Shown: in pieces, positions 39,203-60,988 of the stretch
How the letters are laid out: each line of letters begins with the position of its first letter
How positions within the stretch are numbered: the first letter of the stretch is position 1
NCBI RefSeq assembly: GCF_000711715.1
Contig: NZ_JONN01000001.1
Span: 620,001-684,000 of the forward strand
Length of the DNA: 64,000 nt
Reading direction: 5' to 3'
DNA from: Sphingomonas astaxanthinifaciens DSM 22298
Lineage (GTDB): Bacteria > Pseudomonadota > Alphaproteobacteria > Sphingomonadales > Sphingomonadaceae
Position numbers and translations under genes: made by a program
Notes under the pieces: generated by a model
What the model was told of the DNA's origin: nothing
The model's database searches: none
Seen by the model: only the letters and a program-made list of their open reading frames with translations

Positions 39203-39215
39203 ATGGCTAGGCCCG
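39196..39215 (+). promoter_or_regulatory. Hairpin with the leuC start codon in its loop
   Basis: CGGGC (39196-39200) and GCCCG (39211-39215) are exactly complementary and enclose a 10-base loop that contains the leuC ATG (39203-39205). leuC has no visible Shine-Dalgarno sequence. The hairpin could limit initiation unless upstream translation opens it. Confidence 0.35.
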
Positions 39216-40627
39216 TGGCTGGTCTCACCCTCTACGACAGGATCTGGAACGCCCATGCGGTGGCGCCGGTCAGCGGCGAGGACTGGCTGCTCTATATCGA
39301 CCGCCATCTCATCCATGAGCTGACCAGCCCGCAGGCCTTCACCGGCTTGCGCGAGGCGGGGCGGAGGGTCCGCCGACCCGAGCTGACGCTCGCGGTCGCC
39401 GACCACCAGGTGCCGACGGTCGGGCGCGCGCTCGGGATCGCCGGCATCGCCGATCCCGACGCCCGCGCGCAGGTCGAGGCGCTCGAGCGCAACGTCGCCG
39501 AGTTCGGCGTCCCCTACATTCCGCTCACTCACCGCGCGCAGGGGATCGTCCACATCATCGGGCCCGAGCTTGGGCTGACCCTCCCCGGCATGACCATCGT
39601 CTGCGGCGACAGCCACACCGCCACCCATGGCGCGTTCGGCGCGCTCGCCTTCGGGATCGGCACCAGCGAAGTCGAGCATGTGCTCGCCACCCAGACATTG
39701 CTGGCGAAGAAGTCGCGAAACATGCGGGTAACGGTGACCGGCCGGCTCGGTCGCGGAGTCACCGCCAAGGACGTCATCCTCGCGCTGATCGGCCGGATCG
39801 GCACCGCGGGCGGGACCGGCCATGTCATCGAATATGCCGGACCGGTGATCGAGGCGCTCGACATGGCCGGGCGGATGACCGTCTGTAACATGTCGATCGA
39901 GGCGGGCGCGCGGGCCGGCCTCGTCGCGCCCGACGACAGGACCTTCGACTGGCTGCGTGGACGCCCGCTGTCGCCGCAGGGCGCGGACTTCGACGCCGCC
40001 TGCGAGCGGTGGCGCGCCCTCCGCAGCGACGACGACGCGCTGTTCGACCGCGAGGTCACCCTCGATGCCGCCGACATCGCGCCGATGGTCAGCTGGGGGA
40101 CCAGCCCCGAGGCCGTGACGACCGTCGCGGGCACCGCGCCAGTCCTCGACGGCCTCGACGCGGCGAAGCGCGCGCAGGTCGCGCGGATGCTCGATTACAT
40201 GGGCCTCGCGCCCGGACAGAAGCTCGCCGGGGTCGCCATCGACCGGGTGTTCATCGGCAGCTGCACCAACGCGCGGATGGAGGACCTCCGCGCCGCCGCC
40301 GAAGTGGTCCGGGGGCACCATGTCGCCACCGGGGTCAGGGCGCTCGTCGTCCCCGGCTCGGGCGAGGTCAAGCGCCAGGCCGAGGCGGAGGGGCTCGACC
40401 GGATCTTCGCCGGCGCGGGCTTCGAGTGGCGCGACGCGGGCTGCTCCATGTGCCTCGGCCTCAACGAGGACCGGCTTCGTCCGGGGGAGCGCTGCGCCTC
40501 GACCTCCAACCGCAATTTCGAGGGCCGGCAGGGTCCCGGCGGACGGACCCACCTGATGAGCCCCGCCATGGCGGCCGCCGCCGCCATCGCGGGACAAATC
40601 GTCGACGTTCGGACATGGGCACAATGA
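39203..40627 (+). CDS. leuC: 3-isopropylmalate dehydratase, large subunit
   Basis: The 474-residue protein is the iron-sulfur subunit that isomerises 2-isopropylmalate to 3-isopropylmalate in leucine biosynthesis. The aconitase-fold motifs are intact: [32 protein letters not shown] with the first cluster cysteine, and GCSMCLGLN with the other two. The end [14 protein letters not shown] is typical. Its stop overlaps the leuD ATG by four bases. No leuA or leuB is in the window. Confidence 0.96.
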
Positions 40628-41262
40628 CCCCGTTCAGGACCCTCACCGGCATCGCTGCGGCGCTCCCCATCGCCAATATCGACACCGACCAGGTGATCCC
40701 CGCCGACTATCTCAAGGGGACCACCCGCGACGGCCTCGGCGCGGGCCTGTTCGCGCCCTTGCGCTACGACGGCGAAGGGCGCGAGCGATGCGACTTTCTC
40801 CTCAATCGCGAGCCGTGGCGGCGGGCCGAGATCCTCGTCACGCTCGACAATTTCGGCTGCGGGTCGAGCCGCGAGCATGCGCCCTGGGCGCTCGCCGGCT
40901 TCGGCATTCGCGCCATCCTCGCGCCGAGCTTCGCCGACATCTTCCGCAACAACGCCTTCAAGAACGGACTCCTGCCCGCGACCCTCGCGCCCGACGCCAT
41001 CGCCCGGTTGCTGGAGCTCGCGGCCAATCCCAATTCGGCGACCTTCACCGTCGATCTCGAGCGGCAAACGGTGACCACCGCCACGGGCGAAGAATTCGCG
41101 TTCGACGTCCCAGCCGAACGCCGCGACGCGCTATTGAGCGGCCTCGACGAGATCGGTCGCTCGCTGCAGCTCGAGGACGCCATCGCCGCGTTCGAAGAGC
41201 GGCACCTGGCGACGCTGCCGCCAATTCCGGCCTGGCCGGCACTGGCGGCGCGCCTCGCCTAG
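40624..41262 (+). CDS. leuD: 3-isopropylmalate dehydratase, small subunit
   Basis: The 212-residue swivel subunit pairs with LeuC. It begins [30 protein letters not shown], and the active-site loop [16 protein letters not shown] is intact. A further ATG nine bases upstream is possible. The ATG at 40624 overlaps the leuC stop (ATGA). The stop codon overlaps that of the convergent TonB receptor gene by four bases. Confidence 0.95.
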
Positions 41263-43817
41263 AATTTCGCGCCCAGCTCGACGCCGAACTGGCGACGGCT
41301 GCCCGGCGAGATGAAGGATCCGCCGAACTCGATCGCCGGAATGACCTCGTTGAGATATTTCTTGTCGGTCACGTTATCGACGAAGGCGATCACCTTCCAA
41401 TGCTCGGTCTCGAGCCCGCCGCGCAGGTTGAGCACGCCGAACTTGTCGCGCCGGGCGACGTCGTAGCGGGCATTGCCGATGAAGCCGGGGAGACCGAGCG
41501 CACTGATCGGCAGCAAGGCGGTGAAGAGGGTCGGACGCTCCTGGTCCTGCACCGTGTGGAACCAGGTCGGGCCGGTCAGGCGATAGTCGGCGCGCGCGAC
41601 GAGGTCGGCAAAGCCGATGCTCTGCGTGAGCTGGGTGCCGAGGTTGAGCGTATAGTCGGCGGTATAGGGCGACTTGTTGCCGACCGTGTAAGGCCGCGAG
41701 GCGTTCTTCTTGATCTTGCTGTCGGTGACGTTGAACGAGCCGAACACGCTCCACCCGCGCATCGGCTTGACGCTGACGTTCAGTTCGACGCCCTTGGTGT
41801 CGACCCGGTCGATGTTCGAGACGACGCGCAGCAAGCCGAAGCTGCCGACGAAGAATTCGAAGAACTGCATGTCGTGGATGCGGGTGTAATAGCCCGCGAG
41901 GTCGTAGGTGACGGCGCCGTTCATGAAGCCGCCCTTGATCCCGGCCTCGAAGGCGCTCGATCGCTCCTTGCGGTAGCGGTCGTTGATCAGCACGTCGGCG
42001 TCGATCGTTCCCGGCGTCACCCCGTCGTTGAACGAGGCGTCGATGGTCGCCTTGGCGCCGCTGTTGTTGAAGCCGCCTGCTTTGAAGCCGATGCCCCAAT
42101 TGGCGTAGACATTCATGTCGGGCGTCGGCCGGTAGCTGAGGCTGATCTTGGGCTGGAACTGGCGGAAGGTCTTCTTCTGGTCGGGGATCGGTCCCGACAC
42201 CTGCCCCGGGTTGAGCGGCGCGCCGGTGATCGGGTCGGTCACGAAAGGCACCCGGTTGGACGCGCGCCGCGCTTCGATGTCGTAGCGTCCGGCGAGCCCG
42301 ATCTTGAACTGGTCGCTCACCGCATAATCGGCGGAAGCGAAGCCCGCATAGACATTGGTCCTGAACTTGTCGGCGTAGAGCTGGCTGGTCGGATTGGCGC
42401 TGGTCGGCCCGTTGTAGAGGTTCTTGATGACCCCCTGGCCAAGGTCCGCGCCGAGGCTGACGCCGACCAGCCGGTCGATGTGGAGGTAGTAAGCGCCGAC
42501 CTGCCAGCTCAAGGGGCCGGTGCCGTTCGAGGCGAGGCGCACTTCGCCGCTCCAGTCCTTCTGGTTGCGGACCTGATATTGGGTGCCGTCGCAGGTGGTC
42601 GGCGAATAGGGTCCGAAGGTCGAGCCATTGGCCGGCGCGAAGATGAAGGGGACGGGGATCGCGCCGATGAAGCCCGGCTGGTTGACCGGATAGCCGGTCA
42701 GCGCCGCGGTCGAGGCGAAACAACTGTTCAAGGCAGCGACGCTGGTCGGATTGACTGGTCCGCCGTTCGCCGCCGAAATGTAGCGTGCGAAATCGGCCGA
42801 GGTGCCGTCGGCGACGAGGTTCTGCTTGACGTTGGAATAGAGCGTCCAGGCGGTGAGCTTGGTGGCCCCAAAGTCATGCTCGATCTTGGCCGAGGCTTCC
42901 CATGTCTTCTGGTCGTTGGTCGGCTTGATGTTGCTGTAGAAGTTGAACGGGTGGGCGTTGACGTCCTCGTAGAAGGCCGGGTTCACCGCCGCGAAATTGG
43001 GCAGGTGAAAGGCCGCGTTGAAGGCGATCGAGGCCCCGTCGAACCGGGCGTAGCGCGCCTTGACGTCGAGGTTGGTCTGCGGCCCCAGCGCGGCGACGAT
43101 CCGGCCGTCGACGCCATAGGTCTTGGCATTGTCGACGCAGTCGCAGTCGAGGAAGTCGTTGTGATAGAAGCCGTCGGTCTTGCGGTAATTGGCCGACAGG
43201 ACGATCCCGACGTCGGGCGCGATCGGTCCCGCGACGTAGCCGCGCGCTTCCTGCGTATTCTGTTCGGCCAGCACCACCGTCGCGCCGCCGCCCCATGACT
43301 TGCCGGGCCGGATCGTGGTGAGCACGATCGCGCCGGCGGCGGCGTTGCGGCCGTAGAGCGCGCCCTGCGGGCCCTTGAGGATCTCGACCTGGCGGAGCGT
43401 GCCCTGCACCTCGTTCAATTGCGCGGTGTTGGTCTTGAGGATTCCGTCGACCACCAGCGCGACCGAGCTTTCGGCATCGCGCGCACCGTTGATCCCGCGG
43501 ATGTTGATCTGGGTGTCGCCGGCCTCGGCGGTGCCCGTGACGATGGTGACGCCCGGGGTCAGCTGGACGAAGCTTTCGGCATTGGTGACGCCGGTGCGGG
43601 CCAGCGTCTCGGACGAGATGACGCTGACCGAGGCGGGGACGTCGATCAGCCGCTCGGCCTGGCGGCGGGCGGTGACGATGATGTCGCTGTCCTTCTCGGG
43701 CGCCGCATTCGCCGCCGCCGGATCCGGCTCCGCGGCGCTGTCCTGGGCCTGCGCGGGCGCCGCAAGCGCAAGCACGGCGGTCCCGAGGGCGAGCTGCGCT
43801 TTCCACCACCTGTTCAT
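41259..43817 (-). CDS. TonB-dependent outer-membrane receptor of the catabolic island
   Basis: The 852-residue protein has a signal peptide ending AAPAQA, a TonB-box-like SDIIVTARRQ, a plug (TPGVTIVTG, then INIRGINGARDAESSVALVVDGI and VEILKGPQGALYGRNAAAGAI) and a long barrel ending GVELGAKF. It resembles the large sphingomonad receptors for organic substrates rather than ferric siderophores. It is the last of a four-gene set behind the racemase-like and two SnoaL-like genes, so it likely imports the substrate of the island across the outer membrane. Confidence 0.92.
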   Translation of the reverse strand: MNRWWKAQLALGTAVLALAAPAQAQDSAAEPDPAAANAAPEKDSDIIVTARRQAERLIDVPASVSVISSETLARTGVTNAESFVQLTPGVTIVTGTAEAGDTQINIRGINGARDAESSVALVVDGILKTNTAQLNEVQGTLRQVEILKGPQGALYGRNAAAGAIVLTTIRPGKSWGGGATVVLAEQNTQEARGYVAGPIAPDVGIVLSANYRKTDGFYHNDFLDCDCVDNAKTYGVDGRIVAALGPQTNLDVKARYARFDGASIAFNAAFHLPNFAAVNPAFYEDVNAHPFNFYSNIKPTNDQKTWEASAKIEHDFGATKLTAWTLYSNVKQNLVADGTSADFARYISAANGGPVNPTSVAALNSCFASTAALTGYPVNQPGFIGAIPVPFIFAPANGSTFGPYSPTTCDGTQYQVRNQKDWSGEVRLASNGTGPLSWQVGAYYLHIDRLVGVSLGADLGQGVIKNLYNGPTSANPTSQLYADKFRTNVYAGFASADYAVSDQFKIGLAGRYDIEARRASNRVPFVTDPITGAPLNPGQVSGPIPDQKKTFRQFQPKISLSYRPTPDMNVYANWGIGFKAGGFNNSGAKATIDASFNDGVTPGTIDADVLINDRYRKERSSAFEAGIKGGFMNGAVTYDLAGYYTRIHDMQFFEFFVGSFGLLRVVSNIDRVDTKGVELNVSVKPMRGWSVFGSFNVTDSKIKKNASRPYTVGNKSPYTADYTLNLGTQLTQSIGFADLVARADYRLTGPTWFHTVQDQERPTLFTALLPISALGLPGFIGNARYDVARRDKFGVLNLRGGLETEHWKVIAFVDNVTDKKYLNEVIPAIEFGGSFISPGSRRQFGVELGAKF

Positions 43818-43853
43818 ACCGAAACCCTCCCTGTTCGGGCGGTCCGTCCGCGC

Positions 43854-44252
43854 TCAGACGAGGACGTTGGCACCGCTCATGTAGACGTAGACTTCCTGGA
43901 ATTTGCCGTCCCGAATGCGCCAGAAATTGGTGTTGTTGAGGCGCGTTACGCTACCGTCGGCGGCGGTCAGGACCGCTTCGAAACTCGCCGCGATGCGGCC
44001 ATTCGCCTCGTCTACCGTGCAGGTGAAATCCTTGTGCACAATGGTCTCGTAGGCGCCGAAGAAATCCTCGAACATGCGGCGGATGGCGGGCTTGCCGGCA
44101 TGCCGCGTGAAGCTGGTCTGGACGCAGAACAGGGCTTCCTCGTGGAAGCAGGCGAGGGCGCCTTCCATGTTCTTGGCGTCGACATTGCCGAAGTAGGTTC
44201 GGGTCGCGAGCTCGATCAGCGCGTCGCGGGAAAGGCCGGGCTCATATTGCAT
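43854..44252 (-). CDS. SnoaL-like / NTF2-fold protein 1
   Basis: The 132-residue protein has an NTF2-like pattern: an N-terminal helix (ALIELATRTYFGNVDAKN), MEGALACFHEEALF, then HAGKPAIRRMFEDFF and a C-terminal YVYMSGANVL. Such cone-fold proteins can be cyclases, isomerases or hydrolases, or small-ligand binders. It shares the YVYMSG ending with the next gene, implying duplication. Start ATG overlaps the stop of the upstream gene as TGATG, so they are coupled. Confidence 0.8.
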   Translation of the reverse strand: MQYEPGLSRDALIELATRTYFGNVDAKNMEGALACFHEEALFCVQTSFTRHAGKPAIRRMFEDFFGAYETIVHKDFTCTVDEANGRIAASFEAVLTAADGSVTRLNNTNFWRIRDGKFQEVYVYMSGANVLV

Positions 44253-44683
44253 CAGGCGTCTCCCGCCTTGAGCAGATTGTCGCCGCTCATGTAGACGTAG
44301 ACCGACTGGAACAGCCGATCCTGAAGATAGAAGCGGTTGCAGTTTTCGTAGCGCAGTTCGGACCCGCCATTGGGCGTGATCAGGACCGTGAACTGCGAGC
44401 AGATCGAGTTGCTCTCAGGGTCCGCGGTGTGGACGAAATTGCCGTGCCACAGCGTCTCGAAATCGGCGAACAGCTTGCGGAACATGGCGGCGATGCCGGC
44501 GTCGCGGCCGCGGTGCACGGTCATCGAGGTGACCTCGGTCAGCACCGCGTCGGGTGCGAAGCAGTTCAGGACCTCGGTCAAATTCTTGTTGTCGACCCCG
44601 TCGAAGTAACGCTTGGTCACGATGTCGATGTAAAAGGGATAGGGGAGGGCGATCTGCCCCGCGCCCGCTTCGCTCCAGCTCAT
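44252..44683 (-). CDS. SnoaL-like / NTF2-fold protein 2
   Basis: The 143-residue paralogue of the neighbouring protein contains VTKRYFDGVDNKNLTEVLNCFAPDAVL, HRGRDAGIAAMFRKLFADFETLW and the ending VYVYMSGDNLL. The shared FDGVDNKN/FGNVDAKN and MFRKLFADF/MFEDFFGAY patterns show common descent. The two may form a heteromer or act on successive intermediates. The ATG at 44683 overlaps the stop of the racemase-like gene by four bases. Confidence 0.8.
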   Translation of the reverse strand: MSWSEAGAGQIALPYPFYIDIVTKRYFDGVDNKNLTEVLNCFAPDAVLTEVTSMTVHRGRDAGIAAMFRKLFADFETLWHGNFVHTADPESNSICSQFTVLITPNGGSELRYENCNRFYLQDRLFQSVYVYMSGDNLLKAGDA

Positions 44684-45423
44684 GACCAGCCCTTTCGGAT
44701 GTCGGCGTCCTTGGGCACTTCGGGGGCCGGGAACGCCGTCTTGCTGTGGGTGAGGCCAAGGCTGAGCCAGGTCTCCATCTGCTTCCATGCGACCTGGCCG
44801 GGGTTGATGACCGGAACGGGAAGCACGCTGGCGAGATAGCCCGCCGACTGGTGCATGGTGGTAGAACCCAGGACGATGACGTCGGCGCCATCCGCCTCGA
44901 TCGCGGACTCGGCCTCGGCCTTCAACTTGCCGAAGATCACCTCTTCCTTGCCCGCGAGGAGCTCGGTGACGTCGGGCCGGGTCTGGATCGAGCGCAGGGA
45001 GGCGACCCGGTCCCACCAGCCATATTCGGTCAGCGTCTTCTCGTAGAGCGGGAACCACTCGTCCCACATGGTGAGAATGGTGAAGCGCTTCCCGAGCATC
45101 ATCGCGGCGGCGAAGGCCGCCTCGCCCGGGCCGACCACGGGAATCGACAATCGCGAACGAAGCGCGCGCAGCCCGCTGTCGCTGACGGTGTCGATCAGGA
45201 CCCCGGCGTAGCCTTCCTCCTCGGCGGTGATCCCGGCCTGGAAGACGGTCCAGTCCATCAACAGCATGTCGTGGTAGCTGTCGCCCAGTGCCGCGCCCCA
45301 TTTGACGGCCGCGAACTCGGGCTGGAAGCCGGGGGCGACGAGGTCGGACGGCAGCTGTCGGGCGCGATTGGCGACCCCGGCTTCGTCCATCGGGATCGGC
45401 ACGATCACCTTGACTCGCTGCAT
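44680..45423 (-). CDS. Asp/Glu/hydantoin-racemase-fold protein lacking both catalytic cysteines
   Basis: The 247-residue protein has the two-domain pattern of the Asp/Glu/hydantoin racemase superfamily: GYAGVLIDTVSDSGL, IPVVGPGEAAFAAAMMLGKRF and ADVIVLGSTTMHQSA. In racemases, the first and third of these carry the catalytic cysteines (CFGDPGL and LGCAG types); here the positions are Thr79 and Ser187. It is therefore not an ordinary two-cysteine racemase or maleate isomerase. Decarboxylase, isomerase or ligand-binding roles are open. It heads a minus-strand operon, with the start at 45423 just downstream of an operator palindrome. Confidence 0.75.
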   Translation of the reverse strand: MQRVKVIVPIPMDEAGVANRARQLPSDLVAPGFQPEFAAVKWGAALGDSYHDMLLMDWTVFQAGITAEEEGYAGVLIDTVSDSGLRALRSRLSIPVVGPGEAAFAAAMMLGKRFTILTMWDEWFPLYEKTLTEYGWWDRVASLRSIQTRPDVTELLAGKEEVIFGKLKAEAESAIEADGADVIVLGSTTMHQSAGYLASVLPVPVINPGQVAWKQMETWLSLGLTHSKTAFPAPEVPKDADIRKGWS

Positions 45424-45448
45424 GGTGCCCCTTTCGATGCGAAGGTGT

Positions 45449-45460
45449 AATGTATACAAA
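45449..45460. promoter_or_regulatory. Probable GntR/FCD operator 1
   Basis: AATGTATACAAA contains the perfect palindrome TGTATACA. It lies between the divergent racemase-like and gntR genes and matches the TnGTATACnA operator type of GntR/FadR-subfamily regulators. The same core recurs at 46843-46850 near hmgL. Confidence 0.7.
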
Positions 45461-45514
45461 ATGGTGACGTCAAGCGGGTTGCCGCCTAGACCAAAGCCAG
45501 TAGAAGAACGCCTC

Positions 45515-46171
45515 ATGTCGCGCGCATCGGACCATGCCTATTCGGAGATCCGGAGCCTGATCCTGTCGGGCGACGCGCCGCCGGGTTCACCGCTGCGCGA
45601 AGAGCAGCTGGCCGAAATGTGCGGGCTGTCGCGGACCCCGGTGCGTGACGCGCTGCGCCGGCTCGAGGCCGAGCTCTATGTCGTGCGATCGGAAAGCCAG
45701 CGGACCTTCGTCGCCGACTGGAGCCGCGAGGACGTCAGCGAGATGTTTGCGCTGCGCGCCATGCTCGAGGCGCATGCGGCCAAGCGCGCGGCCGAGCGAA
45801 TGACCGAGGACAAGCTCGCGGCGCTGACCGAAACCAATCGCGCGCTCGACAAGGCGGTCGGCAAGGCGCGTCCCGACGTGGTCGGATTCCTCGAGCGCAA
45901 CCGCGATTTCCACGGCCTGATTATTGAAACCGCGGCCTCACCGCGGATGGCGGCGACCCTTGCCACCCTGGTCGAGCAGCCGGTCGTCCGGCGCACCGCC
46001 ATGCATTACGGCCGCGAGGAACTGGAGCAGTCGGCGAGCGAGCATCGCGAGCTGCTCAAAGCCTTCGCCGCGCGGGACGGCGAGTGGGCGCATTCGGTGA
46101 TGACGGCGCACATTCGGCGCGCCTTCCACGCCTTCGCGGCGCGCTCCGCTCAGGTGAGCGAGGCGAGATAA
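45515..46171 (+). CDS. GntR-family transcriptional regulator with FCD ligand domain
   Basis: The 218-residue protein has an N-terminal winged helix (AYSEIRSLILSGDAPPGSPLREEQLAEMCGLSRTPVRDALRRLEAE) and a C-terminal all-helical FCD domain (MFALRAMLEAHAA, RNRDFHGLI, SEHRELLKAF) with likely metal-binding His residues. Such repressors release DNA on binding a carboxylic-acid ligand. It sits in the centre of the island next to palindrome TGTATACA and likely controls both divergent units and itself. An in-frame ATG at 45461 would add 18 residues. Its 3' end overlaps the convergent amidase gene by 22 bases. Confidence 0.88.
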   Translation: MSRASDHAYSEIRSLILSGDAPPGSPLREEQLAEMCGLSRTPVRDALRRLEAELYVVRSESQRTFVADWSREDVSEMFALRAMLEAHAAKRAAERMTEDKLAALTETNRALDKAVGKARPDVVGFLERNRDFHGLIIETAASPRMAATLATLVEQPVVRRTAMHYGREELEQSASEHRELLKAFAARDGEWAHSVMTAHIRRAFHAFAARSAQVSEAR

Positions 46172-46794
46172 TCCTTCGCCTGCGCCGCCGTGATGACGTC
46201 GGCGTATTTGGCTTGGAGGTCGAACAGGTTCGCCTCGTGGATCGCGGCCTCGCGATCGCCGCACGCGTCGCGCACGACCAATGGCGCGAAGCCGTGGCAC
46301 AACGCATCAAGTGCGCTTGCCCGGACGCAGCCGCTGGTGGTCAGCCCGGTGACGAGGATCGTGTCGATCCCGCGCGCGCGCAGTTGCTCGGCGAGGTCGG
46401 TGCCGAAGAAGGCGCTCGGGAACTGCTTGGTGACGACGATGTCGCCGTCTTGCGGCGCGAGGTCGGGGGTGAATTCCCCAAGCGGATTACCGGCCTCCCA
46501 ACAGGCAAGGCCGGCGATCTTGCGGCGAAATAGCCGCGCGGGCTCGGCCTCCTTGTCAAGCGGATATTCGACCCGCGTGAATACCAGCGGGATGCCTTGT
46601 CGGCGGGCTTGTTCGGCAAGGCTTCGGGCAACGTCGCGGCATGACTCGACCGGCGCCCGGAGCGGTGATCCGTCGGTGAAATAGCCGGCCGCCCAGTCGA
46701 CCAGCAGCAGCGCCGGACGCCGCCCCCACGGCAGGCTTCCGCCGAAGCCGGAAGCCGCATAATCCTGTTGGACGTCCGCACCGTGAACGCTCAT
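46150..46794 (-). CDS. Isochorismatase-family cysteine hydrolase (amidase)
   Basis: The 214-residue protein has the complete Asp-Lys-Cys triad of amide-cleaving isochorismatase-family enzymes: Asp33 (LLVDWAAG), Lys123 (VVTKQFPSAFFGT) and Cys156 (TSGCVRASALDA), with a conserved cis-peptide-type GLTTSGC. Members include N-carbamoylsarcosine, maleamate and ureidoacrylate amidohydrolases. In this island it could remove ammonia from an open-chain amide acid produced by the hydantoinase-type subunits. It diverges from hmgL over the second operator. Confidence 0.88.
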   Translation of the reverse strand: MSVHGADVQQDYAASGFGGSLPWGRRPALLLVDWAAGYFTDGSPLRAPVESCRDVARSLAEQARRQGIPLVFTRVEYPLDKEAEPARLFRRKIAGLACWEAGNPLGEFTPDLAPQDGDIVVTKQFPSAFFGTDLAEQLRARGIDTILVTGLTTSGCVRASALDALCHGFAPLVVRDACGDREAAIHEANLFDLQAKYADVITAAQAKDYLASLT

Positions 46795-46840
46795 GAGCGC
46801 AGCCTAGCCTTTCGCCGATGCTATACAAGCGCTCCGACGG

Positions 46841-46852
46841 TTTGTATACAAA
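46841..46852. promoter_or_regulatory. Probable GntR/FCD operator 2
   Basis: TTTGTATACAAA is a perfect 12-bp palindrome lying 4 bases before the hmgL ATG and about 45 bases upstream of the amidase start. A weaker half-like copy, CTATACAA, occurs at 46821-46828. It shares the TGTATACA core with operator 1. Confidence 0.75.
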
Positions 46853-46856
46853 ACCC

Positions 46857-47801
46857 ATGACTCGTGCCGTCGAGATTGTCGAAGTGTCACCTCGCGACGG
46901 CTTGCAGAACGAGCCGGTCGGCCTGTCCACGGCGGACAAGATCGCGCTCATCGAGCGAGTCATCGCTGCCGGTGCGCGGCGCGTGGAAGTGGCGAGCTTC
47001 GTCAACCCGCGCCGGGTTCCGCAGATGGCCGACGGTGAAGCGGTCGTTGCCGGGCTCCCCAACCGCAGCGACGTCCGCTTCACTGGCCTTTGCCTCAACG
47101 AGCGCGGAGTCGAGCGGGCGCTGGCGGCGTCCGCCGCCGCCACGCGCGGGCTCGACGAGATCGGTTGTGTGCTTGTCGCCACCGATGCTTTCGGGATCGC
47201 CAACCAGGGCCAGACCGTGGCGCAGGGGATCGCCGCCAACCGGGCGATGATTGCCGCCGCGAAACTGGGCGGACTGCGTGCACAGGTCACGATCGCCGCC
47301 AGCTTCGGCTGTCCTTACGAGGGCGCGGTCGCCGAGGACCATGTCCTGGGCCTCGCCGAAGCCATGGTCGAAGCGGGCGCGGACGAGATCGCCTTCGCGG
47401 ACACGATCGGGGTCGCGGTCCCGGCACAGGTGGCGAGCATGGTCGCCAACGCCCGCCGCCGGCTGGGCGACGACTTCCCGATCCGGGTCCATCTTCACGA
47501 CACGCGCGGCATGGCCCCCGCCAATGCCTGGGCCGCCTTCCAGGAAGGCTGCCGGACGTTCGACAGTGCGCTCGGCGGCCTCGGCGGCTGCCCCTTCGCG
47601 CCCAAGGCCGCTGGCAATCTCGCGACCGAGGAACTGGTCTACATGTTCGAGCGGGCAGGGATCGCCACGGGCATCGACCTCGTCGCGGCAATCGACACCA
47701 ATCGCTGGCTGGCGGAGCGGATGGGCAAGAGCCTGCCGAGCCGCGTCGGCCGGGTCGGGGACTTCGTGCCCCATCCGCCTCAAGAGCAGGAGTGTGCATG
47801 A
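46857..47801 (+). CDS. Hydroxymethylglutaryl-CoA-lyase-type enzyme
   Basis: The 314-residue TIM-barrel protein of the HMGL-like family has SPRDGLQNE with catalytic Arg/Asp at the start, HLHDTRGMAPANA with metal-binding His residues, and GGLGGCPFAPKAAGNLATE with the loop cysteine near the end. Such enzymes cleave 3-hydroxy-3-methylglutaryl-CoA or similar 3-hydroxyacyl-CoAs to acetyl-CoA and a ketoacid. The ATG at 46857 lies directly downstream of operator 2 with no ribosome site, so the message may be nearly leaderless; ATG 46818 is an alternative. The stop overlaps the next start. Confidence 0.9.
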   Translation: MTRAVEIVEVSPRDGLQNEPVGLSTADKIALIERVIAAGARRVEVASFVNPRRVPQMADGEAVVAGLPNRSDVRFTGLCLNERGVERALAASAAATRGLDEIGCVLVATDAFGIANQGQTVAQGIAANRAMIAAAKLGGLRAQVTIAASFGCPYEGAVAEDHVLGLAEAMVEAGADEIAFADTIGVAVPAQVASMVANARRRLGDDFPIRVHLHDTRGMAPANAWAAFQEGCRTFDSALGGLGGCPFAPKAAGNLATEELVYMFERAGIATGIDLVAAIDTNRWLAERMGKSLPSRVGRVGDFVPHPPQEQECA

Positions 47802-49840
47802 GCTATCGTCTTGGTGTCGACGTCGGTGGCACCTTCACCGACCTGCTGGTGATCGACGACGCCAGCGGGCGAACGTGGCGCGACAAGGTCCCCTCGACCC
47901 CGCATGACCCGTCCGAGGCGGTGATCGCCGGAACCAAGGCCGTCTGCGCCAAGGCCGACATCGGCCCCGAGGCGCTGCAGCTCTTCCTCCACGGCACCAC
48001 CGTCGCGACCAATGCCGTGCTCGAGCAGAAGATCGCCCGGGTCGGACTGATCGTCACCGACGGCTACCGCCACATCCTCCAGATCGCCCGCAGCCTCGTC
48101 CCGGGCGGTCTGGCGGCGTGGATCGTCTGGCCCAAGCCCGAGCCGATGGCCCCGCTCGAGGCGACGATCGAGGCCAAGGAGCGCATCGGCGCCGACGGGA
48201 CCATCGTCCGCGGGCTCGACGAAGCGGCGCTCCGCCAGAGCCTCAGGCGCCTCGCCGAGGAGAAGGTCGAGGCGGTCACGGTCTGCCTGATCAACAGCTA
48301 CGTCAACGACGCCCACGAACGCCGCGTCGCCGAGATCGTCGGCGAGGAGATGCCGCACGTGCCCGTCAGCGTATCGGCCGACATCCTTCCCGAAATGCAG
48401 GAATATGAGCGCGCGCTCACCACCGTCGCCAATTCGGCGGTGCGCCCGACCGTGTCGCGCTACGTCGGCAATCTCGAAAGCGAACTTCGGGCGCTCGGCA
48501 GCGAGGCCAAGCTCAGCCTGCTGCGTTCCGACGGCGGCCTGATGAGCGCCGAGAAGAGCCGCACCGCGCCGGTCAACCTCCTCATGAGCGGACCCGCCGG
48601 CGGGGTCGCGGGCGCGGTATGGGTGGCGAAGAACAGCGGCCACCCCAATGTGCTGACGCTCGACATGGGCGGGACCTCGACCGACGTCGCGCTGATCGAG
48701 GATCACCAGCCGAGGCTCCGGCGCGAGACCAGCGTCGGCCATCTCACCGTCCGCGCCTCCTCGCTCGACGTGAAGACCGTCGGCGCGGGCGGCGGCTCGA
48801 TCGCCAGCGTTCCCGAACTGACGAAAGCCTTGCGCGTCGGCCCGCAGTCGGCGGGTGCGGTGCCGGGGCCGGCGGCCTATGGGCGCGGGGGCGAGGAGCC
48901 GACCGTGACCGACGCCAACGTCGTTCTCGGCTACCTTCCTGAGAACCTCCTCGGCGGGAGCTTCCGGCTCGACCGCGAGGCGTCCAAGCGCGCGGTGCAG
49001 AAGGTCGCCGACGCGCTCGGTCTCTCGCTGATGGAAGCGGCGGCGGGGATCATCTCGATCGTCAACGAGACCATGTTCGGCGCGCTTCGCCTGGTCTCGG
49101 TCCAGCAGGGCTACGATCCCCGCGACTTCGCGCTGATGGCGTTCGGCGGCGCCGGCCCCTTGCACGGCAATGCGATGGGGATGCTGATGGGCAGCTGGCC
49201 GGTGATCATCCCGCCCTCGCCGGGCGTGCTCTGCGCCTATGGCGACGCGACCACCAGGCTGCGGGTCGATGCGCAGCGCAGCTTCAATCGGCTGGTCACC
49301 CAGACCGACGACGCCGAGGTGAAGGCGGTGGTCGACGAGATCATCGCGCAGGTCACCGCCGAGCTCGAGGCCGAGGGCGTTCCCGCCGCCGACCAGGAAC
49401 ACCGGATCGAGATCGACGTCCGCTATTCGGGCCAGGCCTTCGAGGTGCCGCTGAGCCTTCCGGTCGGAAGCACGATTGCCGACCTCATCGCCCGGTTCGA
49501 CGCCGAGCATCTGCGCCTCTTCACCTTCAATCTTCCGGTCGCGCAGGAACTGGTGAACATCCGAGTGGTGGCGCTCGGCAAGGCCGCCAACGTCAGTGCC
49601 GAGAAGATCCCGCAAGGCGACGGCGATCCCGCCGCGGCCAAGCTCTACGACCACAAGGTCTGGATGGACGGGCGCGAGCAGGACGCGGTGATCTACGACC
49701 GCGCGAAGCTCCGCGCCGGCGACCAGGTGCGCGGCCCCGCCATCATCACCGAGATGGACTCGACCACGCTCGTCCACTCGGGCCACGTCGCCGCGGTCGA
49801 CCCCTATGGCAATATCCTGATCAACCCGGAGGGACGCTGA
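47798..49840 (+). CDS. Hydantoinase/oxoprolinase family, subunit A (HyuA-type)
   Basis: The 680-residue protein has the acetate-kinase/Hsp70-like ATPase motifs of HyuA: VDVGGTFTDLLVID near the start, HGTTVATNAVLEQ, LTLDMGGTSTDVALIE in the middle and AFGGAGPLHG. A C-terminal beta domain follows. With subunit B it should hydrolyse a cyclic amide or carboxylate compound with ATP. 5-oxoprolinase, N-methylhydantoinase, caprolactamase and acetone carboxylase belong to this family; substrate cannot be read from sequence. Ribosome site aggag precedes the ATG, which overlaps the lyase stop. It is smaller than fused 5-oxoprolinases. Confidence 0.92.
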   Translation: MSYRLGVDVGGTFTDLLVIDDASGRTWRDKVPSTPHDPSEAVIAGTKAVCAKADIGPEALQLFLHGTTVATNAVLEQKIARVGLIVTDGYRHILQIARSLVPGGLAAWIVWPKPEPMAPLEATIEAKERIGADGTIVRGLDEAALRQSLRRLAEEKVEAVTVCLINSYVNDAHERRVAEIVGEEMPHVPVSVSADILPEMQEYERALTTVANSAVRPTVSRYVGNLESELRALGSEAKLSLLRSDGGLMSAEKSRTAPVNLLMSGPAGGVAGAVWVAKNSGHPNVLTLDMGGTSTDVALIEDHQPRLRRETSVGHLTVRASSLDVKTVGAGGGSIASVPELTKALRVGPQSAGAVPGPAAYGRGGEEPTVTDANVVLGYLPENLLGGSFRLDREASKRAVQKVADALGLSLMEAAAGIISIVNETMFGALRLVSVQQGYDPRDFALMAFGGAGPLHGNAMGMLMGSWPVIIPPSPGVLCAYGDATTRLRVDAQRSFNRLVTQTDDAEVKAVVDEIIAQVTAELEAEGVPAADQEHRIEIDVRYSGQAFEVPLSLPVGSTIADLIARFDAEHLRLFTFNLPVAQELVNIRVVALGKAANVSAEKIPQGDGDPAAAKLYDHKVWMDGREQDAVIYDRAKLRAGDQVRGPAIITEMDSTTLVHSGHVAAVDPYGNILINPEGR

Positions 49841-51714
49841 TGCCCGCGCGGATCATCCAGACCAACACCACCCCCTTCGCGGCACAGGACATCGATCCGG
49901 TCACGCTCGACATCATCGAGAATGCGCTCCGCAACGCGCGGATCGAGATGGACGCGACGCTGGTCCGGACCGCCATGTCGCCCGGCATCCGCGAGCAGGG
50001 CGACGCCTTCCCGCTGATCGCCGACCCCGACGGCAAGATGATCGTCGGCCAGTTCGGAAGCTTCATCGACGGCTTCCTGCGCGGCTTCGACGGGACGATC
50101 GAGGAGGGGGACATGATCTTCCTCTCCGACCCCTACAGCTGCGAGGGCGCGGTCAGCCACAGCAACGACTGGCTGGTGCTGCTGCCGGTCTACCGCAACG
50201 GCCGCCTGGTCGCCTGGACCGCGATGTTCGGCCACCAGAGCGACATCGGCGGCAAGGTCGCCGGCTCGATGCCGATCGACGCTCGCGCCATCTTCGAGGA
50301 GGGCGTGCGAATCCCGCCGGTCAAGATCTGGAACAAGGGCGTCTACAACGAGGACCTGATCAAGCTCGTCATGCACCAGACCCGCAAGCCCGACTGGTGC
50401 GCGGCGGACTTGAACGCGCTCATCGCCTCGTGCCGGGTGGCGGCGCGCCGGGTCGAGGAGATGTGCGCGCGCTTCGGCGACGACGTCTATATCAGCGCGA
50501 CCAAGGCCCTGCTCGAGCGCAACTATCGCGCGATGAAGGCGCTGATCGAAAGCAGCGTCTCGACCGATCCCGTCAGTTTCGAGGATTATGTCTGCGACGA
50601 TGGGGTGGGCTACGGGCCCTACAAGATCGCCTGCACGATGCACCGCGAAGGCTCGAAGGTGATCCTCGACTTCACCGGCACCGATCCGCAGTCGGCGGCG
50701 TCGATCAATTTCTACCTGAACGAGAACATGTTCAAGATGTTCTTCGGCATCTACATGATCATGGTCTTCGACCCCCAGATCATGTTCAACGACGGCTTCT
50801 ACGACCTCATCGACGTGCGCATTCCCGAGGGCACGTTGCTGAAGCCGAAATATCCCGCGGCCTTGTCGGGCCGGACCCATGCATTGGGCCGGATCTTCGA
50901 TATCCTCGGCGGCCTGCTCGGCCAGCGCACGCCCGAATTTCTCTGCGCCGCCGGCTTCAGCTCCTCGCCCCACCTCATGTATTCGGGCCGCGACAAGAAG
51001 GGCGACTGGTTTCAGCTGTTCCAGATCGGCTTCGGCGGCATTCCCGGCAAGCCGTTCGGCGACGGGCCCGACGGCCACTCGCTCTGGCCCGGCTTCACCA
51101 ACGTGCCCAATGAATTCCTCGAGCGCTACTTCCCGCTCCGGATCGAGCGCTACGAGGCGCTCGCCGACAGCGGCGGGGCGGGCAAGTTCCGCGGCGGCAA
51201 CGGCATCCTGATGAGCTACCGTTTCCTCGCGAGCGGAACGGTCAGCATTCACGACGACCGCTGGTTCACCTATCCGTGGGGCGTCAATGGCGGGAAGCCC
51301 GGTGCCCGCGCGCGCAAGGTGCTCGAGAAGCCCGACGGAAGCTCGCGGATCGTTCCCAACAAGCAGGACAGCCTCGACGTCGAGGAAGGCGATATCCTCC
51401 ACTTCATCACCTGGGGCGGTGGTGGCTGGGGCGACCCGCTCGAACGCGAGCCTGCGCTGGTCGCGAAGGAAGTCCGCCAGGGCCTGGTCACCGTCGAAGG
51501 CGCGCGCGCTTATGGCGTGGTCTGCGACGCCGACGGGGCGCTCGACGAACGTGCGACGGCGAAGCTTCGGGAGGAAATGGCGGGGCAGGGCAGCGGCGAG
51601 CTGTTCGACCGCGGCGGGACGATCGAGGAATTGCGCGCGCGCTGCGAGGCCGAGACAGGCTTGCCTGCGCCCAAGGCGCCCGTCTGGCGGCATCTGGCGG
51701 TCGCCGCCGAATGA
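49840..51714 (+). CDS. Hydantoinase/oxoprolinase family, subunit B (HyuB-type)
   Basis: The 624-residue protein matches the B subunit of hydantoinase/oxoprolinase enzymes: DIIENALRNARIEMDATLVRTAMSP, then SDPYSCEGAVSHSNDW and GGAGKFRGGNG, ending with HFITWGGGGWGDPLERE. The start ATG overlaps the hyuA stop (TGATG), and GGAGGG precedes it. A and B are translationally coupled and surely form one enzyme. It is long relative to many HyuB proteins, with a C-terminal tail after residue 560. Confidence 0.92.
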   Translation: MPARIIQTNTTPFAAQDIDPVTLDIIENALRNARIEMDATLVRTAMSPGIREQGDAFPLIADPDGKMIVGQFGSFIDGFLRGFDGTIEEGDMIFLSDPYSCEGAVSHSNDWLVLLPVYRNGRLVAWTAMFGHQSDIGGKVAGSMPIDARAIFEEGVRIPPVKIWNKGVYNEDLIKLVMHQTRKPDWCAADLNALIASCRVAARRVEEMCARFGDDVYISATKALLERNYRAMKALIESSVSTDPVSFEDYVCDDGVGYGPYKIACTMHREGSKVILDFTGTDPQSAASINFYLNENMFKMFFGIYMIMVFDPQIMFNDGFYDLIDVRIPEGTLLKPKYPAALSGRTHALGRIFDILGGLLGQRTPEFLCAAGFSSSPHLMYSGRDKKGDWFQLFQIGFGGIPGKPFGDGPDGHSLWPGFTNVPNEFLERYFPLRIERYEALADSGGAGKFRGGNGILMSYRFLASGTVSIHDDRWFTYPWGVNGGKPGARARKVLEKPDGSSRIVPNKQDSLDVEEGDILHFITWGGGGWGDPLEREPALVAKEVRQGLVTVEGARAYGVVCDADGALDERATAKLREEMAGQGSGELFDRGGTIEELRARCEAETGLPAPKAPVWRHLAVAAE

Positions 51715-52928
51715 GCGTCGATTTCGAGAACCGAGGTCCGCTCAAGGACATTCGCGTGGTCGAAATGGGCCAGCTCATCGCTGGGCCCTTCTGCGGCCAG
51801 CTGCTCGGCGACATGGGCGCCGAAGTCATCAAGATCGAGCCGCCCGCGACCGCCACCTCCAAGGGTGGCGATCCGATGCGCGACTGGGGGCGGGGCGACT
51901 ATCCGCTCTGGTGGGAGGTGGTCGCCCGCAACAAGAAGAGCGTCACCGCCAACCTCCGCGTTCCCGAGGGCCAGGAGCTCGCCCGCCGGCTGATCGCCAA
52001 GGCCGACATCCTGGTCGAGAATTTCCGCCCGGGCACGCTCGAGAAATGGGGGATGGCGCCCGCCACGCTCCATGCCGAGAACCCTGGCCTCATCATCGTG
52101 CGCATGTCGGGTTACGGCCAGACCGGGCCCTATTCGGACCGTGCCGGCTTTGGCGGGATCGGCGAGGCGATGGGCGGCTGGCGCAACATCGTCGGCGATC
52201 CCGACCGGCCGCCGAGCCGGATGGGCGTATCGATCGGCGACAGTCTTGCCGCCACCTACGGCTGCATGGGTGCGCTCGCCGCGCTTCATCACCGTGACCG
52301 GACCGGCGAGGGGCAGGTGGTCGACAGCGCGCTGTACGAGGCAGTGCTGCAGGTCATGGAGAGCCTCGTCCCCGAATATGCGGTGCACGGCTATGTCCGC
52401 GAACGCTCGGGCTCCAAGCTTCCGGGGATCGCGCCGTCTAACGTCTATCGCTGCAGCGATGGCGAGCTCTTGATCGGCGCAAACCAGGATAGCGTCTTCG
52501 CGCGGCTGTGCGAGGCGATGGGCGAGCCCGAGCTGGCCAGGGACCCGCGCTATGTCGACCATGTGGCGAGAGGGAAGAATCAGGACGAGCTCGACGCGAG
52601 GATCGACGCCTGGACTCGCACCCGCACCGTCGCCGAAGTCGAGGCGCTGATGCACGAGCACGCGATTCCCGCGGGACGCGTCTACACGCCCAAGGACATG
52701 CTCGAGGACCCGCATTTCGCCGCGCGCGAGGCGATCGTCGACGTGCCGCACCCGCGCTGGCAGGGGCTCAAGATGCAGAATGCCTTCCCGCGCCTGTCGC
52801 GCACGCCGCCGGGTATCCACCGCCTGGCGCCGCAGGAAATCGGACAGGACAATGCGGCGATCTACGGCGAGCTCCTCGGCCTCGACGACGCCGCGCTCGC
52901 CGCCAAGCGCAGCAGCGGGATCATCTAG
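51711..52928 (+). CDS. CaiB/BaiF family CoA-transferase
   Basis: The 405-residue class III CoA-transferase has MGQLIAGPFCGQLLGDMGAEVIKIE near the start, VENFRPGTLEKWG, RMSGYGQTGPY, and the catalytic aspartate in VSIGDSLAATYGCMGALAAL. These enzymes move CoA from succinyl-CoA or similar donors to organic acids. Behind hyuAB and a lyase, it likely activates the diacid for cleavage. The ATG overlaps the hyuB stop by four bases. The last 8 bases overlap the convergent methyltransferase gene. Confidence 0.92.
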   Translation: MSVDFENRGPLKDIRVVEMGQLIAGPFCGQLLGDMGAEVIKIEPPATATSKGGDPMRDWGRGDYPLWWEVVARNKKSVTANLRVPEGQELARRLIAKADILVENFRPGTLEKWGMAPATLHAENPGLIIVRMSGYGQTGPYSDRAGFGGIGEAMGGWRNIVGDPDRPPSRMGVSIGDSLAATYGCMGALAALHHRDRTGEGQVVDSALYEAVLQVMESLVPEYAVHGYVRERSGSKLPGIAPSNVYRCSDGELLIGANQDSVFARLCEAMGEPELARDPRYVDHVARGKNQDELDARIDAWTRTRTVAEVEALMHEHAIPAGRVYTPKDMLEDPHFAAREAIVDVPHPRWQGLKMQNAFPRLSRTPPGIHRLAPQEIGQDNAAIYGELLGLDDAALAAKRSSGII

Positions 52929-53568
52929 CGCGCAAGGGCACGACGGCGAGGAGCCCGGTGACCCTGGCCGTCACCTGAACCTCGCGCACGCAGGCGGAAG
53001 CGCCGGCGATTCCGGCCTGCTCGAGCTCGGCCACCAGTCCGCCGCCGGTGAAGTGGCGATGGGTCGCGTGGCTCGCGACCCGCCAGCCCTGCATGGATTC
53101 GGCGGCGGTGACATAGATGCCAAGCTGCGCGCCCGGCCGCGCGACGCGGCGACATTCCGCGACGAAGGCGGGGACGTCGCTGCAGAAATAGAGGATGTTC
53201 GAGGCGAACAGGCGATCGAACGCCCCGGCGCCGAACGGAAGCCGCATCATGTCGCCCTCGCGCACCATCGCCCGTCCCTCGGCGAGCGCAGCCGACAGTC
53301 GCCGCCGGGTCCGCCGCACCATCAGCGGCGAGCGGTCGATCCCGGCGCGGAAAAAGGCCTGCGGCAGGCCCGCGAGAAGCGATCCGTCCCCGCAGCCGAT
53401 GTCGAGGATCCGCTCGCCCGGTCGGACTGCGAGCGCCTCGATCAATCGATCGGTGGGCCGGCGGTTTGCGAAGTGCATGGCGGTGCCGACCAGCCGGCCG
53501 GCGAGCCCGCTCGGGAGCGCGAGCTGCCTGCCAATGCCGAGCGCCGCGCGGTCGAGGAGCGCCGCCAT
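52921..53568 (-). CDS. Class I SAM-dependent methyltransferase
   Basis: The 215-residue protein has the SAM-binding motif ILDIGCGDGSLLAGL near residue 55, then REGDMMRLPFGAGAFDRLFASNILYF, and VAECRRVARPGAQLGIYV, all typical of methyltransferase domain 11/25 proteins. Substrate is unknown. It is the last gene of the cluster starting at 57624, eight bases after the TPR-like gene, so it may modify the product of that cluster or be only loosely linked. Confidence 0.85.
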   Translation of the reverse strand: MAALLDRAALGIGRQLALPSGLAGRLVGTAMHFANRRPTDRLIEALAVRPGERILDIGCGDGSLLAGLPQAFFRAGIDRSPLMVRRTRRRLSAALAEGRAMVREGDMMRLPFGAGAFDRLFASNILYFCSDVPAFVAECRRVARPGAQLGIYVTAAESMQGWRVASHATHRHFTGGGLVAELEQAGIAGASACVREVQVTARVTGLLAVVPLRAR

Positions 53569-53575
53569 GTCGGGC

Positions 53576-54223
53576 TCAGCCGAGCTTCGCGAGGAGCGCC
53601 TTGACCTCGGCGCGACGCCCGGCGTCCCACACCGGTCGGTCGTGGTTCACCGGCGCTTGCAGCGCGCGCTGGAGATACTGGCGGGCATGGGCCTTGTCGC
53701 CCTCCTGCGCGAGGAAGTCGGCATAGAAGAAGTTGTTGTCGAGCCCGTGCGGGTCCTGCGCCAGCGCCTGCTCGAAGAAGCTCCGCGCCTTGGCGGTGCT
53801 GCCAAAGCCGATCGGCCAGCCGGGCACCTTGTAGTAGAGGACGCCGAGGCTCATCGCCGCGCCGCCGTCGGCGACCTTCGGATTGAGCGCATAGGCCTTG
53901 GCGAGGATGTCGCGGGCCCGGTTGGCGAGGCCGAGCTGGCGCAGCGTCGAGGCGCGCGCGGCCTCCTCGCTGACGACGATCCCTTCCCACAGCAGAGGCT
54001 CGGCGCGACCCGGATACTTCTGCACCACCGCGGCGGCCTGCTGCTCGAGCGCGGCGAGCTGGTTGAACTGCGCATCCTTGTTGCCGACCTGGTAGCGGAT
54101 ATGCGCCCAGCCGTTGTTGATGCGCATGACGGCGCTGTCCATCGCGGGATCGTTGCTGGCGAAGGCCGCCGTGCTGGCGAGGGCGAGGCCGAGGGCGACG
54201 ATGCTCTTGCGGACGAGGGTCAT
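53576..54223 (-). CDS. Periplasmic TPR-like protein
   Basis: The 215-residue protein has a signal peptide (MTLVRKSIVALGLALASTAAFA) and helical repeats of TPR character (AKAYALNPKVADGGAAMSLGVLYY, then ARSFFEQALAQDPHGLDNNFFYADFLAQEG, then ARQYLQRALQA). Related small TPR proteins accompany many secreted-enzyme or envelope loci. Function is unknown. It lies between the SDR and the methyltransferase genes. The ATG at 54223 has a G/A-rich upstream stretch. Confidence 0.75.
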   Translation of the reverse strand: MTLVRKSIVALGLALASTAAFASNDPAMDSAVMRINNGWAHIRYQVGNKDAQFNQLAALEQQAAAVVQKYPGRAEPLLWEGIVVSEEAARASTLRQLGLANRARDILAKAYALNPKVADGGAAMSLGVLYYKVPGWPIGFGSTAKARSFFEQALAQDPHGLDNNFFYADFLAQEGDKAHARQYLQRALQAPVNHDRPVWDAGRRAEVKALLAKLG

Positions 54224-54252
54224 GGGTCTTCCTTCTGTTGCGCGTTGGGGGG

Positions 54253-57624: not shown

Positions 57625-57695
57625 GGCACTCCCCGGTGGTTCGGGGGTAAGACGCCATGCCGACCGGGGCACCTCAGCCGGGGCGGGAAATTTTT

Positions 57696-60924: not shown

Positions 60925-60988
60925 CGATCCCGTCCGGGTGCTGATGCCCTCGCCGTCGTTTCCCCGCAATGACGCCGTGCCCCGGCCA

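Follow-up and report, generated by a model that had tools for sequence, protein, structure and literature searches.

A locus that sets a HyuAB-type cyclic amide hydrolase beside an amidase, a coenzyme A (CoA) transferase and an enzyme of the 3-hydroxy-3-methylglutaryl-CoA (HMG-CoA) lyase family raises the question of whether these genes work together and, if so, on what compound. The locus lies in a stretch of 64,000 nucleotides from Sphingomonas astaxanthinifaciens DSM 22298 (contig NZ_JONN01000001.1, positions 620,001 to 684,000 of the forward strand), which was analysed at its full length and is called the window here; coordinates are those of the window. The gene set, which occurs in many aquatic bacteria, is a conserved regulon with a common operator. 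In this genome it probably forms a catabolic island under GntR control, about 13.7 kb long and with twelve genes (39203-52928), for which five-membered cyclic imides are a tentative candidate substrate.

A conserved regulon with a common operator

The initial annotation had described ten genes of named families placed round two divergent promoters. This was borne out, as all ten reading frames are present at 41259-52928 and each matches its named family in Pfam/NCBIfam profiles. As an account of the island's extent it fell short, in that leuC and leuD (39203-41262), which probably belong, were omitted. The features of the locus are as follows.

39203-40627, plus strand: LeuC-type hydro-lyase large subunit (above the curated leuC cut-off; outside the span first annotated)
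40624-41262, plus strand: LeuD-type hydro-lyase small subunit (above the curated leuD cut-off; overlaps leuC; outside the span first annotated)
41259-43817, minus strand: TonB-dependent receptor (Pfam)
43854-44252, minus strand: SnoaL-like protein 1, sno1 (Pfam SnoaL_2; alignment)
44252-44683, minus strand: SnoaL-like protein 2, sno2 (Pfam SnoaL_2; alignment)
44680-45423, minus strand: Asp/Glu racemase-fold protein without catalytic cysteines (T79, S187; Pfam, PDB alignment)
45450-45459, no strand: GntR-type operator palindrome ATGTATACAA in the racemase/gntR intergenic region (motif search; kept in relatives)
45515-46171, plus strand: GntR/FCD regulator (Pfam)
46150-46794, minus strand: isochorismatase-family amidase (Pfam; nearest to N-carbamoylsarcosine amidohydrolase)
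46819-46828, no strand: weaker operator-like site TGCTATACAA (two mismatches)
46842-46851, no strand: GntR-type operator palindrome TTGTATACAA before HMGL (motif search; kept in relatives)
46818-47801, plus strand: HMG-CoA-lyase-family (HMGL) enzyme (NF004283; PDB alignments)
47798-49840, plus strand: HyuA-type subunit of a predicted ATP-dependent cyclic amide hydrolase (Pfam, NCBIfam, PDB)
49840-51714, plus strand: HyuB-type subunit (Pfam, NCBIfam, PDB; metal ligands kept)
51711-52928, plus strand: CaiB/BaiF (class III) CoA-transferase (Pfam)

The divergent pairs are racemase-like/gntR and isochorismatase/HMGL. Most neighbours on the same strand overlap by 1-4 bases, so that the tight overlaps noted earlier hold in the main, but tonB and sno1 do not overlap. 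Convergent overlaps are found at both ends of the island, where leuD meets tonB with overlapping stop codons and caiB meets a methyltransferase-like gene (52921-53568). The operator lies 3' of the listed start of HMGL (46818) and is closely followed by an in-frame ATG at 46857, which may be the true start of the gene. The palindromes at the two promoters had been taken to be identical; the sites at 45450 (ATGTATACAA) and 46842 (TTGTATACAA) have TGTATACAAAA in common but differ in part, and full identity is not reached. With at most one mismatch allowed, TTGTATACAA matched the 64-kb window at these two positions, compared with 0.05 matches expected.

Scanning genome contigs with the racemase-like protein yielded 78 loci, and 77 after a partial match (L079) was dropped; L032, which has two racemase-like genes (both Thr/Ser), is excluded from the 77. 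Partner counts were made in the 57 of these loci with at least 9 kb upstream and at least 3.5 kb downstream, which were split by hand, on gene content and record title, into 48 Sphingomonadales-type loci and nine others (seven gammaproteobacterial and two alphaproteobacterial). Gene counts in loci rest, here and below, on tblastn matches. Of the 48 Sphingomonadales-type loci, 45 had the full set of nine partners alongside the racemase-like gene, as the predicted co-occurrence of these families across genomes would have it, and chance assembly of the genes was rejected for this reason. Carriers of the island include Blastomonas natatoria (L008) and Erythrobacter dokdonensis (L048). Individually, tonB, sno1, gntR, hyuA, hyuB and caiB were each present in 48/48, and sno2, hmgl and isochorismatase in 47/48. 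The operator was similarly constant, with TGTATACA present in 56 of 58 gntR-racemase intergenic regions, where base shuffling predicts 0.05, which upholds the earlier proposal of a single, coregulated catabolic island. Operator sites in 1.386 Mb of loci numbered 118 and lay near the starts of hmgl (49), the racemase-like gene (45) and gntR (19), with three near other cluster genes and two elsewhere. The nine other loci presented a different picture: hyuA, hmgl and caiB were each found in only three of them and no isochorismatase turned up in the flanks, and thus the racemase-SnoaL module often stands alone there.

Loci collected through HyuB revealed which genes form the core of the set. HyuB was searched in 199 genomes of the family and matched in 129. 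Orthologues at 75% or above occupied 48 places in 46 genomes, followed by four places at 59-61% and two partial matches; the weaker matches were mostly near 30% identity among the matches listed. In 42 of the 48 orthologous loci (the window's own and five others were left out), the partners were caiB (36), hmgl (35), isochorismatase (34), gntR (33) and tonB (31), whereas racemase, sno1 and sno2 were each found in only 12. We therefore consider TonB-GntR-HMGL-HyuAB-CaiB-amidase to be the core, and the racemase and SnoaL genes to be an optional accessory module.

The racemase-like protein of this module matches PF01177 at 95.5 bits (cut-off 31), and its nearest solved chains are hydantoin and allantoin racemases. 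PDB alignment with the hydantoin racemase 3qvj places Thr79 and Ser187 at the two cysteine positions. Thr/Ser was found at both catalytic positions in 77 of 77 close sequences, and a working two-cysteine racemase was rejected because the catalytic cysteines are absent from all of them. Thr/Ser is likewise the pair in the first copies of Tistrella, Variovorax, Neorhizobium and Rhizobium, a Novosphingobium plasmid copy has Ser/Ser, and three aligned second copies have other residues, none of them cysteine. That the protein is under strong constraint follows from 78 invariant columns in a 34-row alignment that includes gammaproteobacteria. This names a clade of the racemase family that cannot be a two-cysteine racemase. 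For the SnoaL pair, the matches among solved chains were all weak and fell on an uncharacterised protein, an epoxide hydrolase and ketosteroid isomerases.

Other genes were seen near these modules in some genomes. In four Novosphingobium loci (L054, L057, L059 and L060), a luciferase-like flavin monooxygenase that by eye resembles RutA and an SDR-like gene are a few genes from the racemase-like gene; a methyltransferase-like gene and an oxidase-like gene linked to flavin adenine dinucleotide (FAD) each occur in three of the four, possibly as another upper route. At L072 (10849-20714) and L159 (6245-14701), racemase/SnoaL or HyuAB genes are beside DUF1329, DUF1302, MMPL/RND and YCF48-like genes (by eye), a set that we take to be linked to hydrophobic substrates and that may substitute for the TonB receptor.

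LeuCD and HMGL in this genome and its relatives

The place of leuC and leuD in the island was judged from the genome as a whole and from related LeuC. This genome, which is 99.97% complete, has no leuB over the cut-off (best match 23.6 bits vs 353.2), and its one leuC over the cut-off is the window copy. The genome has no HMGL-profile match besides the island HMGL, and the same profile responded in 14 of 14 control genomes (over the cut-off in three); the lack of a second match is an indirect sign of a missing leuA, which is apparently absent. In three genomes of the same genus (G145, G197 and G077), none had leuC over the cut-off, an HMGL-profile match or leuB over the cut-off, with a leuB-family match at 202 bits, below the cut-off, in G197. 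All four genomes, G197 with that sub-cut-off match, are probable leucine auxotrophs.

Among the 199 family genomes, the best-scoring relatives of the window LeuC were in G174 (72%), G017 (70%), G168 (67%) and G162 (66%), with others close at 65-68%. CaiB- and HMGL-type genes adjoin leuC and leuD in G174, G017 and G162, and are about 5 kb off in G168. HMGL or CaiB was found within 1.5 kb of leuC in three of the four best relatives vs none of 25 others, the 29 other-genome LeuC loci (L122-L150) being best matches and no random draw. In a tree of 42 LeuC sequences (IQ-TREE), one branch (92/87) separated the nine linked ones from the others, and the window LeuC and the four best relatives made up a starred group (99/93). 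Because leuB is absent, leuA is apparently absent, the same-genus genomes have neither leuC nor HMGL, and the window LeuC groups with caiB-hmgl-leuC-leuD clusters, leuCD (39203-41262) probably belongs to the island in this genome. A role for leuCD in leucine biosynthesis was rejected on the lack of leuB, the apparent lack of leuA and the grouping with catabolic-linked LeuC.

Several observations weigh against this assignment. No operator with two or fewer mismatches was found upstream of leuC. The 35 other HyuB loci that have HMGL all lack a leuC match of at least 50% beside HyuB, which leaves the window as the only place where a catabolic-type leuC is beside HyuAB with HMGL. Four of the nine linked LeuC in the tree (L105, L110, L170 and L084) were obtained via HyuB or the racemase-like protein, and the bootstrap is unsettled, with long branches among the outer members, making the outer group weaker. 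A leuC is also present in the flanks of eight of the 77 racemase loci, namely L078 and seven of Erythrobacteraceae type (L029, L041, L046-L048, L050 and L051); these copies were set aside, as they fall among other, partly leuB-linked LeuC. Finally, 28 of the 46 genomes with an orthologous HyuB, this one included, have a single LeuC at E <= 1e-100; in such genomes hydration may be dispensable, or the enzyme of leucine biosynthesis may carry it out. A separate group of CaiB-HMGL-LeuC-LeuD genes, with VOC-like and P450-like genes near (by eye), was seen in three genomes of the same family (L151, L152 and L158).

The HMGL enzyme scores 287.9 bits against NF004283, which represents the HMG-CoA lyase PRK05692 subfamily (cut-off 246), and the motifs PRDGxQ, HxH[DN]TR and GG[CS]P are kept in 60 of 60 near-full matches (L001 left out). 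Since it is the sole family member in this genome and none of the three same-genus genomes has one, HMGL is, on sequence grounds, not the leucine-degradation housekeeping gene of the genus, and to this extent the refuting case named in the initial annotation, enzymes that act only on substrates such as leucine-derived HMG-CoA, is not borne out. The kept family motifs would also suit HMGL and CaiB being ordinary leucine/HMG-CoA enzymes that lie beside unrelated hydrolases by accident. We consider this extremely unlikely, as HMGL accompanies the other genes in 47 of 48 loci under a common operator, is missing from the same-genus genomes, and is accompanied among the ten genes by no dehydrogenase or carboxylase of leucine degradation. 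None of the ten is a leucine-degradation gene of any kind; a search aimed at such genes elsewhere in the genome was not made.

The surroundings of the island were compared with G197. Its right flank is syntenic there (methyltransferase-, TPR-, SDR- and ligase-like genes, partly by eye) and the island is absent, with the left-flank oxidoreductase (37337-38281) on a different contig. The island is thus at the junction of two blocks that are non-adjacent in G197, where a simple empty site was not found. The right flank as a whole (52921-61005), whose genes were named mostly by eye, has methyltransferase-like, TPR-like, SDR, AMP-dependent ligase-like and TonB/FecR-like genes; it keeps its synteny in G197 and may be a separate cluster.

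Candidate route and its alternatives

The enzymes of the island provide a first guide to its substrate. HyuA and HyuB have their Pfam domains above the cut-offs, and HyuB D55, H107, D110 and H132 align with residues D41, H99, D102 and H124, which are metal ligands of the caprolactamase subunit CapB in the part of the source available (PMC8453981). The caprolactamase equivalogs NF050156/NF050157 are not reached (526 and 216 bits vs 1000). The nearest PDB entry to HyuA is the N-methylhydantoinase 7hk5, and HyuB has an N-methylhydantoinase as its nearest solved relative likewise. The amidase (PF00857, 140.7 bits) has its nucleophilic cysteine in a TSGC motif (PDB alignment), and SGC[VI]R is kept in all 50 of the near-full matches from the loci, with the window's own (L001) possibly counted. 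Its nearest PDB chains are 26st, an N-carbamoylsarcosine amidohydrolase (147.7 bits), and 3ot4 (141.7 bits), deposited as a putative isochorismatase and which we take to be the maleamate amidase NicF. CaiB matches the Pfam family CoA_transf_3 at 424 bits (cut-off 23.3); its best NCBIfam matches are succinate-glutarate and succinyl-CoA:mesaconate CoA-transferase, both far below cut-off.

We propose that the GntR-controlled island degrades a five-membered alkyl-imide, a reading whose chances we put at somewhat short of even. The TonB receptor would take in a nitrogen-containing ring compound, and HyuAB would use ATP to open the five-membered ring of a cyclic imide, either an alkyl-maleimide or an alkyl-malimide. 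The product would be an amide-acid, from which the isochorismatase-family amidase would release ammonia and leave an alkylmaleate. LeuCD would hydrate the alkylmaleate to a 2-alkylmalate, a citramalate-like tertiary alcohol; CaiB would convert this to its CoA ester; and the HMGL-family lyase would cleave the ester to an acyl-CoA and a 2-oxoacid, in the simplest case acetyl-CoA and pyruvate. The SnoaL pair and the cysteine-less racemase-fold protein, under the same operator, would be an accessory module that probably acts before ring opening. The sequences show the gene set, its operator and conservation, the changes of partner, the loss of the cysteines and the grouping of LeuC; we infer every reaction of this route, as well as the order of steps, the ring size and the role of leuCD.

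The structural relatives of HyuAB and the amidase are enzymes of the N-methylhydantoin pathway and would fit hydantoins as well as imides, which counts against the alkyl-imide route; the kept metal ligands of HyuB and the kinship of the amidase to 3ot4 count in its favour. Because N-methylhydantoinase and N-carbamoylsarcosine amidohydrolase are the nearest structures, hydantoins are a candidate class of substrate: HyuAB would open a substituted hydantoin in the style of creatinine/N-methylhydantoin, the isochorismatase-family enzyme would take off the carbamoyl group, and the rest would handle the side chain. The kinship of the racemase-like protein to hydantoin and allantoin racemases is in keeping with this, but both cysteines are lost from that fold, a sarcosine-processing gene is not among the ten, and CaiB, HMGL and LeuCD are not known to have a role in such a route. 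On balance a hydantoin pathway is unlikely. It is highly unlikely that HyuAB is instead an ATP-dependent carboxylase of the acetone/acetophenone carboxylase type, acting on a ketone to give a product that CaiB thioesterifies and HMGL splits. Both activities occur in the superfamily, with a common metal site, but for HyuA the caprolactamase alpha model gives 526 bits and that of acetophenone carboxylase gamma 320, neither of which reaches its cut-off, and the amidase-family gene that is with HyuB in 34 of 42 loci would be needless for a carboxylase.

Changes of partner among the HyuB loci hint at the size of the ring. HMGL is missing from seven of the 42 loci (L110, L111, L112, L170, L171, L172 and L178), and a phosphoenolpyruvate-mutase/methylisocitrate-lyase-like gene is present in four of the seven (L110, L170, L172 and L178) vs one of the 35 with HMGL (L169). 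LeuCD is alongside this gene at L110 and L170. Arylmalonate-decarboxylase-family and PuuE-like matches were found at L110, L112, L172 and L178, and a PuuE-like match at L169; FAD monooxygenase and aldehyde dehydrogenase genes (by eye) accompany the loci with such matches. A Rhizobium plasmid (L084) has family-level matches to an isochorismatase amidase, two PuuE-like proteins, LeuCD, a lyase and two racemase-like genes, with no HyuAB, and a Neorhizobium plasmid (L083) has HyuBA, cysteine hydrolase, PrpD-family and methylisocitrate-lyase-like genes beside a racemase-like pair and a branched-chain ABC transporter. In G386, from another class, leuC, leuD, isochorismatase, hyuB and hyuA are a few kb from racemase and SnoaL genes.

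LeuCD, PrpD/PrpB-like enzymes and citramalate-type lyases have C4 malate-type acids as substrates. Because of the swaps with LeuCD and the methylisocitrate-lyase-like enzyme, the analysis indirectly favours a C4 malate-type skeleton, that is, a five-membered alkyl-maleate/malate imide, over 3-hydroxy-3-methylglutarimide. In the available parts of PMC9304392, Aspergillus HxnM is a cyclic imidase that is followed by an amide hydrolase, and HpPgdA, a structural relative of HxnM, has PuuE as its nearest characterised protein. The scores of the swapped partners weigh against the C4 reading, as the PuuE-like protein reaches 146 bits vs the PuuE cut-off of 424.6 and the lyases are below the prpB cut-off.

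The general course proposed in the initial annotation, from lactam or imide to acid, CoA ester and lyase, fits a gene set for HyuAB ring opening, amide hydrolysis, CoA transfer and cleavage, but its example of 3-hydroxy-3-methylglutarimide is indirectly disfavoured by the partner swaps. In that version, 3-hydroxy-3-methylglutarimide or 3-methylglutaconimide would yield 3-hydroxy-3-methylglutarate or 3-methylglutaconate, then HMG-CoA through a SUGCT-like CaiB, and lastly acetyl-CoA and acetoacetate. HMGL is above the curated cut-off of the HMG-CoA lyase subfamily, the solved relatives of CaiB include succinate-hydroxymethylglutarate CoA-transferase (though not as the nearest), and a 3-hydroxy diacid needs no hydratase, in line with the missing leuC in 35 of 35 other HyuB loci with HMGL. 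However, the PRK05692 model is a subfamily and no equivalog, and the LeuCD and methylisocitrate-lyase-like partners would be left without a role, which makes the glutarimide version rather unlikely.

A wider speculation, which we rate as decidedly improbable, is that aquatic Sphingomonadales and some Gammaproteobacteria have a widespread, undescribed pathway that mineralises pyrrole-derived alkyl-maleimides (breakdown products of chlorophyll, haem or bilins), of which the island would be the lower part. The cysteine-less racemase-fold protein with its two SnoaL proteins would then be a novel type of enzyme at the front end of the pathway. In their available parts, publications on haem- or chlorophyll-derived maleimides describe no gene cluster. 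If the alkyl-imide route is true, it would provide a testable function for a regulon conserved across Sphingomonadales and in part Gammaproteobacteria, suggest a catabolic role for some leuCD genes that are annotated as leucine-biosynthetic, and allow genetics to be used to follow what becomes of cyclic imides in water, and perhaps of nitrogen derived from pyrroles.

Comparison with known systems

The island had been called undescribed, and in agreement with this its gene combination was not found in the open-licence papers that made up the literature searched, none of which named at least four of six, or three of five, of the gene families. Parts of the logic are known from the creatinine, nicotinate and citramalate routes. 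With CapAB caprolactamase and N-methylhydantoinase the island shares HyuA- and HyuB-type parts and the kept D-H-D-H ligands of HyuB, but its subunits are well apart from the caprolactamase models in score, as given above, and its partner genes are others. The pairing of HyuAB with an isochorismatase-family amidase is also that of the creatinine/N-methylhydantoin pathway, whereas the island lacks a sarcosine-processing gene among its ten and adds CaiB, HMGL and LeuCD. Its LeuC and LeuD are above the curated cut-offs, as expected of 3-isopropylmalate isomerase, but are found here without leuB and apparently without leuA, and the LeuC groups with catabolic-linked LeuC.

Nicotinate routes pass through maleamate with NicF and NicE. 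Related second HyuAB clusters resemble nicotinate/hxn-type routes in having arylmalonate-decarboxylase-family and PuuE-like proteins. The island differs in that its ten genes have no pyridine-oxidising or ring-cleaving oxygenase (neither the 2,5-dihydroxypyridine dioxygenase nor the deformylase of the nic pathway was among them in Pfam/NCBIfam) and in ending with a CoA-dependent lyase. An imide or amide intermediate, an amidase and a dicarboxylic acid would be common to the island, the nicotinate-type maleamate routes and the Aspergillus hxn route with its HxnM imidase and HxnN amidase (PMC9304392). Degradation of the C5 dicarboxylates citramalate and itaconate likewise proceeds through a CoA-transferase and then a lyase, according to the part of PMC12290011 available, whereas the island has an HMGL-family lyase, a LeuCD hydro-lyase and a front end predicted to release nitrogen.

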